A program made the translations under genes and the position numbers. This document shows, in pieces, positions 37,858 through 55,055 of a DNA stretch of 64,000 nucleotides. The stretch is from Pseudomonas putida. GTDB taxonomy: Bacteria; Pseudomonadota; Gammaproteobacteria; Pseudomonadales; Pseudomonadaceae. The stretch's first letter is position 1. Each line of letters starts with the position of its first letter. Under the pieces are notes generated by a model, which was not told the origin of the DNA, ran no database searches, and saw only the letters and a list, made by a program, of their open reading frames with translations. The stretch lies in the NCBI RefSeq assembly GCF_022627325.1, contig NZ_JAETZZ010000001.1, positions 1-64,000 of the forward strand. Direction: 5' to 3'.

Positions 37858-38322
37858 ATGGCAAGGCGTTTGGCAGCAGTATTGGCCATCACCGCTGGCC
37901 TTTTGCTCAGTGGCTGCGGTGCCGACTACGGTGTGGACCAGCATGGCAACACGGTGAAGGCCGAGCAGATCGACGGGCACTGGCTGGTGCTCAATTATTG
38001 GGCTGAATGGTGCGGCCCGTGCCGTACGGAGGTGCCTGAACTGAACACTGCGGCCAAGCAGTGGGCAGCCGATGGCATCAAGGTGGTGGGGGTGAACTTC
38101 GATGGCCTGCAGGGGCAGGAGTTGAAGCAGGCGGCCGATACCTTGGGCATCGGCTTTACCGTGCTGGCCCAGGACCCGGCCGAGCGTTATGACCTGCCAC
38201 GCAGCGAAGCGTTGCCGGTGACCTACATCATCGATGACCAGGGCAAGGTCCGCGAGCAACTGCTGGGTGAGCAGACCCTGGAAGGGCTCCAGGCCAAGAT
38301 CAAAGCGCTCAAGGGGGCCTGA
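37858..38322 (+). CDS. TlpA-like thioredoxin-fold lipoprotein
   Basis: The 154-aa exported lipoprotein has signal peptide and lipobox LLLSGC (Cys about residue 20). A thioredoxin fold has NYWAEWCGPCRTEVPELN as active site (CGPC) and SEALPVTYIID with the cis-proline. A periplasmic disulfide reductase role, for example in protein or cytochrome maturation, is likely. AAGGA precedes the ATG. Its last 22 bases lie inside a 114-bp segment duplicated in tandem downstream. Confidence 0.9.
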   Translation: MARRLAAVLAITAGLLLSGCGADYGVDQHGNTVKAEQIDGHWLVLNYWAEWCGPCRTEVPELNTAAKQWAADGIKVVGVNFDGLQGQELKQAADTLGIGFTVLAQDPAERYDLPRSEALPVTYIIDDQGKVREQLLGEQTLEGLQAKIKALKGA

Positions 38323-38531
38323 GAGCTGCAAGCGGCAAGCTGCAAGCTGCAAGAAAAAGCGGGCCGTGCGCTGATCCGCCTTTGCTTGCAGCTTGTAGCT
38401 AGCAGCTTGCAGCTCAAAGCACTCAACGGGGCCTCAAAGCGGCAAGCTTCAAGCTTCAAGCTGCAAGAAAAAGCGGGCCGTGCGCCGATCCGCCTTTGCT
38501 TGCAGCTTGAAGCTTGCAGCTTGAAGCTTCC
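38301..38531. repeat. Tandem 114-bp duplicated hairpin element
   Basis: Unit 1 (38301-38414) and unit 2 (38415 to about 38531) are copies offset by exactly 114 bases, e.g. AAGAAAAAGCGGGCCGTGCG at 38351 and 38465. Each has arms built from AGCTTGC-type heptamers around a loop with AAAGCGG...CCGCCTTT. Unit 1 includes the end of the TlpA-like gene; in unit 2 its stop reads TCA instead of TGA. It probably ends transcription from both sides. Confidence 0.85.
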
Positions 38532-38537
38532 GAGAGC

Positions 38538-38942
38538 TTAGCCCTCTTCGGGCCAGAACCGCAGGGGCTTGCCTTCGGCCGGCCAGAAGCGCAACTGCTC
38601 GACAGGGGACACATCCCAGCGCTGCACCGTCTCCAGCGCCTGCAGGAAGCGCTTTTCCTGCTCCATCAACGCTGGCGCGCAAAGCTTGCGGGTCTTGCCG
38701 ACCTTGCCGAAGCTCAGGTGCTCGCCGTCCAGCGTGTACGGGGCGAACCAATGATTGCAGCCCGCATTGCCATAGGCCCGGCCGTCACTGGCCAGCGTCA
38801 GTGTCAGGTGGCTGTAGTCGATCAGCGGCCGTTCACCGATCCACTCCAGCACATAGCTGCGCTCCAGTTGCAGCTTCGAAGGTTCGGTTGCGCAGCCGAG
38901 CAGGCCGGTGGCAATCAGGGCGCCGGTCAGCAGATTCTTCAC
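38538..38942 (-). CDS. META/HslJ-domain lipoprotein
   Basis: The 134-aa lipoprotein has a short signal peptide with lipobox TGLLGC and a META-type domain (YVLEWIGERPLIDYSHLTLTL, GRAYGNAGCNHWFAPY, FGKVGKTRKLCAPALMEQE). The start is a GTG at 38942 with GGAGAG in front; the GTGA overlaps the stop of the preceding gene by 4 bases. The C-terminus LRFWPAEGKPLRFWPEEG repeats an LRFWP motif. META proteins are linked to heat or novobiocin tolerance in E. coli (HslJ); the role here is unknown. Confidence 0.83.
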   Translation of the reverse strand: MKNLLTGALIATGLLGCATEPSKLQLERSYVLEWIGERPLIDYSHLTLTLASDGRAYGNAGCNHWFAPYTLDGEHLSFGKVGKTRKLCAPALMEQEKRFLQALETVQRWDVSPVEQLRFWPAEGKPLRFWPEEG

Positions 38943-44286: not shown

Positions 44287-45678
44287 ATGCTGGACCGTCA
44301 CTCGCTGTTCTGGAAGCTGGCCATCCTGCTGGTAGGTTTCTGCCTGCTGATGATCGGCCTGAGTTACACCTGGGGCCGGCATATGGAAACCCAGAATGCC
44401 TACCTCGATGAGCCTGCCCGCCAGGTGCTGCGCAGCTATGCCGGGGAGGCCGAAGCGGCCTGGCGCAGTGCTGGCCGCACCGGGCTGGACCAGTGGGTTG
44501 CGGCCATGCACCAGCGTGAGCGCGGCTGGATAGGCGTGCTCGATAGCAATCTGCAGCCCCTTGCCAGCACCACCCTCGGCCCGGAGATCATGCAGCGGCT
44601 CACGCGCCTGCGCGGTGTCGACTGGCCGATGAGCCGGCGCAGTACCGACCAGCCCTGGCTGCGCATACCGTTTCCGGGGGCACCGGAGCAGGGCATGCTG
44701 GTGATGGCGTTGCCCGAACGTTTCAACCCTGGCCAATACCGGGTGCTGTGGCGGGTGGTGACCAACGGTGTGATTCCCGGGTTGTTCACCTTGCTGCTGT
44801 GTGTCGGCCTGTACCGCATGTTGATCGTGCCGCTCAACCAGTTGCGCGAGCAGGCCAATGCCTGGCGTGCCGACCAGCTGTCGGCGCGGCTGGACGCACG
44901 CACCACCGCCCGGCATGACGAACTGGGCGAGCTGGCCCGCGCCTTCGACCAGATGGCCGAACGGCTGCAGGGCACGGTGGCCATGCAACAGCAGTTGTTG
45001 CGTGATTTGTCCCATGAAATGCGCACACCGCTGAGCCGGTTGCGCGTGGCCTGCGACGGTGAAACCGACCTTCAGCGCCTGCGCGAGCGGCTGGGGCGCG
45101 AGGTGGACTGCATGCAGCAGTTGGTCGAGAACACCTTGCAGCTTGCCTGGCAGGATGCCGAACGTGCGCCGATGAACCTTGAGCCTATCCAGGTACAGGC
45201 CCTGTGGGACCTGCTGGCAGAGGATGCCAGTTACGAAAGCGGCTGGTCGCCCGAACGCTTGCGCTGCGAGTTGCCAGCTGACTGCTGGGTGCAGGGCAAC
45301 CTGAATCATCTGGCTCAGGCGTTGGAAAACATGCTGCGCAATGCCATCCGCCACTCCCCGGAAAACGGCGTGGTGCAGCTGGCCGGGCAGCGTGAAGGTA
45401 GCCATTGGCGCCTGTGGCTGGAAGATCAGGGCGGTGGCGTGGCTTACGAGGATCTGGAGCGCATCTTCGCCCCCTTCACCCGGCTCGATGGCTCGCGCCC
45501 CGGCGACGGCGGTTTCGGCCTGGGCCTGAGCATCGCCCGCAGTGCGATCCAGCGTCAGGGCGGCACCCTGTGGGCAGAGAACGGCAAACGCGGTCTAAAG
45601 CTCTGCATGCGCCTACCGCTGCACCTCCCCGCGCCATCACGGCAACCCCCGCCCCCACAAACGCTACCGACAGCTTGA
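44287..45678 (+). CDS. Sensor histidine kinase
   Basis: The 463-aa membrane kinase has TM1 at about 9-30 (LAILLVGFCLLMIGLSY), a short periplasmic domain of about 125 residues and TM2 near 160-180 (GVIPGLFTLLLCVGLYRML). HAMP follows, with LSHEMRTPLSRLRVACDG as the phospho-acceptor and NMLRNAIRHSP, DQGGG, GGFGLGLSIARS in the ATPase domain. It pairs with the regulator upstream. The last codons and stop (CAGCTTGAAG) run into a heptamer repeat, so the proline-rich tail may have changed recently. Confidence 0.88.
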   Translation: MLDRHSLFWKLAILLVGFCLLMIGLSYTWGRHMETQNAYLDEPARQVLRSYAGEAEAAWRSAGRTGLDQWVAAMHQRERGWIGVLDSNLQPLASTTLGPEIMQRLTRLRGVDWPMSRRSTDQPWLRIPFPGAPEQGMLVMALPERFNPGQYRVLWRVVTNGVIPGLFTLLLCVGLYRMLIVPLNQLREQANAWRADQLSARLDARTTARHDELGELARAFDQMAERLQGTVAMQQQLLRDLSHEMRTPLSRLRVACDGETDLQRLRERLGREVDCMQQLVENTLQLAWQDAERAPMNLEPIQVQALWDLLAEDASYESGWSPERLRCELPADCWVQGNLNHLAQALENMLRNAIRHSPENGVVQLAGQREGSHWRLWLEDQGGGVAYEDLERIFAPFTRLDGSRPGDGGFGLGLSIARSAIQRQGGTLWAENGKRGLKLCMRLPLHLPAPSRQPPPPQTLPTA

Positions 45679-45732
45679 AGCTTGCAGCTTGCAGCTTGCA
45701 GCTTGCAGCTTGCCGCTTATAGCTTGTAGCTA
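45671..45732. repeat. AGCTTGC heptamer repeat at a kinase 3' end
   Basis: CAGCTTG-type heptamers repeat about eight times (AGCTTGA, AGCTTGC, AGCTTGT variants), starting within the last two codons of the kinase gene. They are the same units that build the arms of the 38301-38531 element. Confidence 0.8.
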
Positions 45733-54738: not shown

Positions 54739-55055
54739 TGATCCAGGCCTTTAAGAGGGAGGGATTCGTAAAAACGACCGTGACGGCCAAGGCCGGCTGG
54801 GAGCGGCGGCTGCCTGAAACGTCAGAGGTCTGTGAAGGCGCGCGATTTTATCAGGGTTGCGGTGCAGCGGCCATCCTCAGGCCGACGGGCAGGGCAGTAA
54901 ATTACTGAAAAAGCCTCGCGGGTGGTTGATGCAGCCCCTTCTGTATAAGCTGCAATCAGCGAGCCCCAGTCGCGAGTCAAAGCGCTGGGGTTCTGACTGC
55001 TTTTTCTTACAGCTTGAAGCTTGCAGCTTGAAGCTCGACTGGACAGGAATCCTCA
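54739..55055. other. Divergent regulatory gap with a heptamer-repeat remnant
   Basis: No gene was recognised. A 13-base palindrome CAGTAAATTACTG sits at 54895-54907 and a TAAAAT-type -10 for purM lies near 54845. At about 55002-55036 a TTTTTCTT run leads into AGCTTGAAGCTTGCAGC heptamers, half of the hairpin element seen at 38301-38531, ending 20 bases before the DUF2066 start. Confidence 0.55.

Follow-up and report, generated by a model that had tools for sequence, protein, structure and literature searches.

The duplicated unit

Two similar stretches of DNA lie head to tail between a tlpA-like gene and a convergent META-domain gene in a genome of the Pseudomonas putida group, and each begins with the last bases of the tlpA-like gene. 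The locus raises the question of how a hairpin came to be copied together with a gene end, and whether events of this kind multiply such hairpins locally or carry them to new places. The initial annotation, made on the window analysed here (64,000 nucleotides, positions 1 to 64,000 of contig NZ_JAETZZ010000001.1), had described a 114-bp tandem duplication in which each unit consists of the last 22 bp of the tlpA-like gene and a hairpin. The features of the locus are as follows.

37858..38322, + strand: tlpA-like gene (thioredoxin/AhpC-TSA family), an open reading frame matching Pfam PF00578 (9.2e-24); source of the captured end
38301..38414, + strand: first copy of the tandem unit; the final 22 bp of tlpA, stop TGA included, and a hairpin
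38415..38528, + strand: second copy of the tandem unit; a gene end that has decayed at 3 of 22 positions, its stop TGA now TCA, and a hairpin
38323..38415, no strand: hairpin 1; inverted heptad arms flanking the core AAGAAAAAGCGG...CCGCCTTTGCTT, arms 88% complementary, z -6.46 on the + strand
38437..38529, no strand: hairpin 2; inverted heptad arms, core as in hairpin 1, arms 88% complementary, z -7.12 on the + strand
38538..38942, - strand: META-domain gene, convergent, its 3' end towards the hairpins; home-made gene model, PF03724 (2.3e-25)

The repeat search and Tandem Repeats Finder agree on the duplication. In the window, the first returned a single direct repeat family here, with two copies of 114 nt at a spacing of 114 and 89% identity, and the second reported period 114, 2.0 copies, 0% indels and a score of 375, the runner-up array in the window scoring 87. 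The gene end occupies 38301-38322 in copy 1 (22 bp, with TGA at 38320-38322) and 38415-38436 in copy 2, where the altered stop codon that had been annotated is indeed present. There are 12 differences between the copies over 114 positions, namely 3/22 in the gene end, 5/31 in the left arm, 1/32 in the core and 3/29 in the right arm. The copied gene end lies behind the stop codon of copy 1 and so forms no part of TlpA. The nearest named relatives of this protein, at 96% identity, are from P. ceruminis and P. plecoglossicida (the genome's own species was perhaps left out of that comparison). Both hairpins (about 92 nt each) have predicted folding energies of -58 to -64 kcal/mol on both strands, with z scores of -6.5 to -7.3 against shuffles. 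A pattern made from 19 bp of the gene end, allowing up to 2 mismatches, matched twice in the window, both times here (0 expected), and a genome-wide search with the same pattern found no gene-end tag outside the two local copies.

The hairpin and the last 22 bp of tlpA were thus copied in tandem, with replication slippage or unequal exchange as the probable cause. The copied gene end has since decayed, and the form of both hairpins has been kept. As a candidate crossover site, direct repeats on either side of the original hairpin were considered, from a junction register found by eye in which 11/16 bases agree, and this candidate was rejected. The direct-repeat test chose another register, with 11/16 equalled by 51 of 2000 shuffles and 12/16 by 12 of 2000. 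Since the by-eye repeat was not the best match in this test, the breakpoint mechanism of the tlpA duplication is unproven.

The same junction in other genomes

The source genome (5.58 Mb) is in 79 contigs, and repeats are prone to mis-assembly, which would favor an assembly or sequencing artefact with a true state of one copy. Comparison with a close strain speaks directly to this reading, which the initial annotation had named as its refutation. The second genome of the same species, G236, is a single contig and was used for all strain comparisons; it also has two copies, with the same decayed tag, in a region where the tlpA DNA is 99% identical. The 12 differences between the copies also argue against an artefact. 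An artefact is ruled out for the tlpA duplication by G236, and we give this explanation practically no credence.

The duplication in G236 has a period of 107, which is 114 minus one heptad. Between strains, the gene-end tag of copy 1 is identical to that of copy 1 and the tag of copy 2 to that of copy 2, and between copies 3/22 bases differ. The tag tells which copies are orthologous, and change in the hairpins can therefore be read against a fixed marker. Hairpin 1 of the source genome differs from hairpin 1 of G236 by 8 substitutions in 85 and one gap, and the two versions of hairpin 2 differ by 4 substitutions in 92. Hairpin 2 of the source genome is closer to hairpin 1 of G236 (6 substitutions in 85) than the hairpin 1 pair are to each other (8 in 85). 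Unlike the tags, the hairpins give no clean grouping by copy, and the two copies may have exchanged sequence. The tlpA-META duplication is older than the split of the two sampled strains.

A single heptad hairpin occupies the tlpA-META site in nine other genomes (L003, L004, L006, L086, L099, L106, L127, L155 and L165), and the duplicated hairpin was seen in this species only. Heptads were found in 8/77 distinct tlpA-META gaps, with the source genome and G236 among the 8; remnants too short for the gap rule, such as those in L120 and L122, stand outside this count. We infer that a single hairpin was the ancestral state at this junction. Irrespective of hairpin class, 74/77 of the distinct gaps are at least half paired, a raw count taken without a shuffled control.

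Many species carry unrelated hairpins instead in the tlpA-META gap (window 38323-38537; orthologous gaps L001-L030 and L086-L195). The junction in L357-L386 is likewise filled by differing, unrelated hairpins across many species. It seems as though one class of hairpin could stand in for another at a given junction.

A family of heptad-armed hairpins at gene 3' ends

The hairpins of the tlpA locus belong to a family whose layout is (CAAGCNN)n - core - (NNGCTTG)n, in which the arms are inverted heptad arrays. The core consensus, AAGAAAAAGC...GCTTTTTCTT, reads the same on both strands and is therefore symmetrical; it was drawn from 39 cores of 25-52 nt out of 48 parsed elements, 9 being left out for core length. 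A hairpin query gave 112 BLAST matches in the genome, in which both strands and partial arms are counted, and we read these as about 40 sites. The heptad pattern GCTTGMAGCTTGMAGCTTG had at least 121 matches in the genome, and its reversed control had 0. For comparison, 40 regions of the source genome and 36 of G236 were used, followed by 5 and 10 more, respectively; they were taken among the matches listed, and several sites on contigs C34 and C45, for example, are not included. Two further arrays lie in the window.

45671..45731, no strand: related heptad array, opposite arm not obvious; period 7, 8.7 copies; three heptads (21 nt) longer than its G236 counterpart
55006..55035, no strand: short array of the same heptad motif; period 14, identical in G236

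Across genomes, the heptad pattern occurred in at least 58/198 Pseudomonadaceae genomes, from 8/19 genera; among 185 genomes sampled across the class, it occurred in none but the source genome itself. The same architecture recurs outside the source genome, in one more member of the genus and in members of two further Pseudomonadaceae genera; in a fourth genome, the architecture pattern had no match and the heptad pattern did. Heptad amplification is patchy across genomes. Among genomes of one genus (G458, G564, G542 and others), heptad counts range from 0 to about 200. An Rfam search with the hairpins returned 16 matches, mostly to miRNA models and all under the gathering cut-offs.

Next, the position of the elements was related to gene models from a home-made finder based on codon usage. 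The median distance from an element to the closest gene 3' end is 9 nt, with 35/39 within 30 nt, and at 34/42 sites with two gene models the closest gene boundary is a 3' end. The neighboring genes are convergent at 12 elements, in the same direction at 27 and divergent at 3, with 2 undetermined; the window's gaps of at least 60 bp, used for comparison, give 4, 22 and 8, which are small numbers.

A standard terminator scan (a G+C stem followed by a T-run) returned no site at 38320-38530, because the core loop of both tlpA hairpins exceeds its limit. A rule of our own was applied to the whole family, namely a G+C stem, a loop of up to 18 and then at least 5 T in 8. It flagged 18/39 cores on the + strand, 16/39 on the - strand and 9/39 on both strands, compared with a mean of 1.1/39 and a largest value of 4 in one-strand shuffles. 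The negative scan and the low number of cores flagged on both strands count against the terminator reading. From their position and core, the heptad hairpins are likely to act as terminators, and a bidirectional terminator is plausible for the tlpA-META hairpin on the same two grounds. The probable role would be to end transcription of the two converging genes, to protect mRNA 3' ends, or both. Known intrinsic (bidirectional) terminators are alike in having an A-tract, a hairpin and a T-tract, just after stop codons and often between converging genes; in the heptad elements, by contrast, the T-tract is enclosed in a far longer stem of repeats, and termination is a prediction.

Change between strains and the origin of new copies

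Of 33 elements at 31 loci, 28 differ in length between the source genome and G236, after two rows were dropped (the first L216 cluster, which had no overlap, and L231, with a flank of 72% identity). In the aligned elements, there are 38 indels, and 26 of these are multiples of 7 (binomial P of 5e-14 for an expectation of 1 in 7); the gaps stand where the aligner put them, and the largest reflect differences between arrays. Length also differs at 6/8 further sites. Substitutions amount to 4.2% in elements and 1.1% in flanks, and at the same loci there are 9.5 indels per kb in elements, 1.6 in other noncoding DNA and 0 in coding DNA. Most change between the strains is the gain and loss of heptads.

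We also examined whether the two arms change together. The variable dinucleotides of opposed heptads matched within elements at 27/113, where 29% was expected, and at 23/104, where 30% was expected; the parser takes exact heptads only, and degenerate units shorten the arms it sees. Coevolving arms, whether by compensatory change or by template-switch correction, were not seen, since 4684/5000 and 4919/5000 permutations gave at least as many matches as observed. Opposed heptads match no more within than between elements. Each arm thus changes on its own, there is no visible selection for exact pairing of the outer arms, and pairing depends on the constant letters of the heptads. The arms would then be independent minisatellites in which whole heptads are gained and lost. 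At L235 versus L345, an AGCAAG-like hexamer tract lies beside the heptads and makes the left part of the element 85 nt longer in G236; hexamer arrays therefore also expand in the family.

Arms that vary freely without coadaptation, together with high substitution and indel rates, could also mean that these are functionless intergenic minisatellites, found at gene 3' ends because that is where they are tolerated. Such a "least worst" location has been offered as a view of P. fluorescens repeats, in the part of that work available (Silby et al. 2009, PMC2718517). Against this stand a symmetrical core that is terminator-like far above shuffles, a start close to a gene 3' end (median 9 nt), the inverted orientation kept by the arms and, with the lack of a shuffled control noted above, the paired state of nearly all distinct tlpA-META gaps. 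We consider this account unlikely, though deserving of attention, and favor probable terminators with heptad arms.

Whole hairpins have also been duplicated at seven loci besides tlpA-META. Copy numbers in G236 and the source genome, with G236 first where the two differ, are as follows.

L298: 4 copies (108 bp), versus 1 in L201
L287: 3 copies, versus 2 in L199
L274: 2 copies, versus 1 in L213
L299 (G236): 2 copies (109 bp), versus 1 in L233
L346: 3 copies, versus 2 in L215 (100 bp)
L220 and L281: 2 copies each; 64 bp in L220
L291 and L355: 2 copies each; offset 80 in G236 and 143 in the source genome

L208 holds a partial 46-bp repeat. Two of these duplications took in a gene end, which with the tlpA case makes three captures. 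In L355, the DNA between the copies repeats about 36 bp from the end of the gene before it, with the stop codon, and 0/2000 shuffles were as good. In L299, the repeated last bases of the neighboring gene are shorter and in part overlap an arm, again with 0/2000 shuffles as good. These observations divide the annotation's statement that the hairpins spread through unequal events that take in coding sequence. Local tandem multiplication, at seven other loci, and carriage of gene ends, at two, bear it out, and recurrent local amplification by such events is supported. Dispersal to new places is not supported, because the tlpA tag is present at this locus only; moreover, 38/43 regions are filled in both strains.

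The latter count covers 43 source-genome regions (3 in the window and 40 fetched); the 38 hold an element in both strains, and the other five (L221, L222, L229, L230 and L231) fall outside the judgement, as do L278, L286 and L295 of G236. At first, five of the 36 G236 regions were without a partner, namely these three and L279 and L290; counterparts of L278, L286 and L295 were looked for in the source genome, and none was found. At L279, G236 has a heptad hairpin and the source genome (L352) a different hairpin class between flanks that are 91-92% identical, perhaps through an imported segment. At L221, compared with L349:7187-9768, the source genome has an element-bearing stretch of roughly 100 bp, and G236 has about 2.6 kb of other DNA in its place.

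L290 bears on a mobile origin, in which the family would be REP/REPIN/MITE-like and moved by a transposase acting in trans, the tandem copies being insertions beside older copies. Its heptad hairpin, about 130 bp, is cleanly absent from L353 of the source genome, where the flanks are joined at a single AGCT. This one clean filled and empty pair leaves room for mobility, as do the patchy distribution across genomes, with one genus at 0 or about 200 matches, and an intergenic tail-to-tail bias like that of the P. fluorescens repeats as described in the available part of PMC2718517. As would be expected of a target-site duplication, AGCT flanks the L290 element on each side and is present once in the empty site, but it is also the element's own end; deletion between AGCT repeats explains the empty site equally well. 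The element carries no coding sequence. In a survey of this junction at 28 loci with both flanks read, heptad hairpins were found in four other genomes (L371, L376, L379 and L382) and other hairpins in many, and gain and loss are therefore both possible. Sites filled in both strains weigh against mobility, and so does the tlpA repeat, whose second copy was made in place rather than inserted because the 22-bp gene end lies inside the repeat. Y1_Tnp genes do not discriminate, as they occur in 26/26 genomes, whether or not these are rich in heptads. The sole Y1_Tnp (RAYT-like) gene found in the source genome, at G000:C79:20943-21239, has an internal stop, and its G236 counterpart, G236:C1:5664828-5665124, is open. 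By eye, no GTAG/CGTC tag is constant at the foot of the hairpin; heptads whose variable dinucleotide is TA do contain GTAG. Taking both sides, we judge a mobile family to be quite improbable.

Related systems have been described. Palindromic repeats (REPs) reiterated in tandem with flanking DNA were reported by Di Nocera et al. 2013 (PMC3733652), and in the part of that work available they resemble the heptad family as palindromic intergenic repeats multiplied in tandem. The heptad family differs in that its stem is a heptad array, its unit is a hairpin of about 92 nt and it shows, by eye, no constant tag. The P. putida intergenic stem-loop families Ppu-4 (81 nt, 41 members) and Ppu-9 (124 nt, 57 members) of Petrillo et al. 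2008 (PMC2267715) are alike in species group, size range, copy number and their nature as intergenic stem-loops, a likeness of descriptions rather than of sequences; the word "tandem" is absent from the main text of that paper. The P. fluorescens intergenic repeats, including R0 and R2, are described as inverted repeats of fixed size, and R0 and R2 were proposed as MITEs (Silby et al. 2009). They share the hairpin form and the tail-repeat-tail bias, and heptad arrays go unmentioned in the available part of that paper. Searches of the literature by heptad string and by topic, with most subscription journals outside their scope, found no description of heptad-armed hairpins.

Taken together, these results make it probable, in our view, that the hairpin is a member of a Pseudomonadaceae family at gene 3' ends, with a terminator-like core, AAAAAGC...GCTTTTT, between inverted CAAGCNN and NNGCTTG arrays. 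Its members would be terminators changed by slippage or unequal exchange, and the tlpA pair would have been duplicated in place. A further reading is speculative, and we hold it to be very improbable: hypermutable heptad stems would make stem length, hairpin number and hence read-through reversibly variable from one sister cell to another at dozens of gene ends, as a contingency-locus system of 3' ends instead of promoters or reading frames. The tlpA duplication itself is ordinary, and the hypervariable family is the more interesting finding. The tlpA locus is a traceable case of what the family does, rather than a single odd duplication. Dozens of gene-end hairpins shift in seven-base steps between nearly identical strains, which is useful for strain typing, and the heptad hairpins are candidate tunable terminators.
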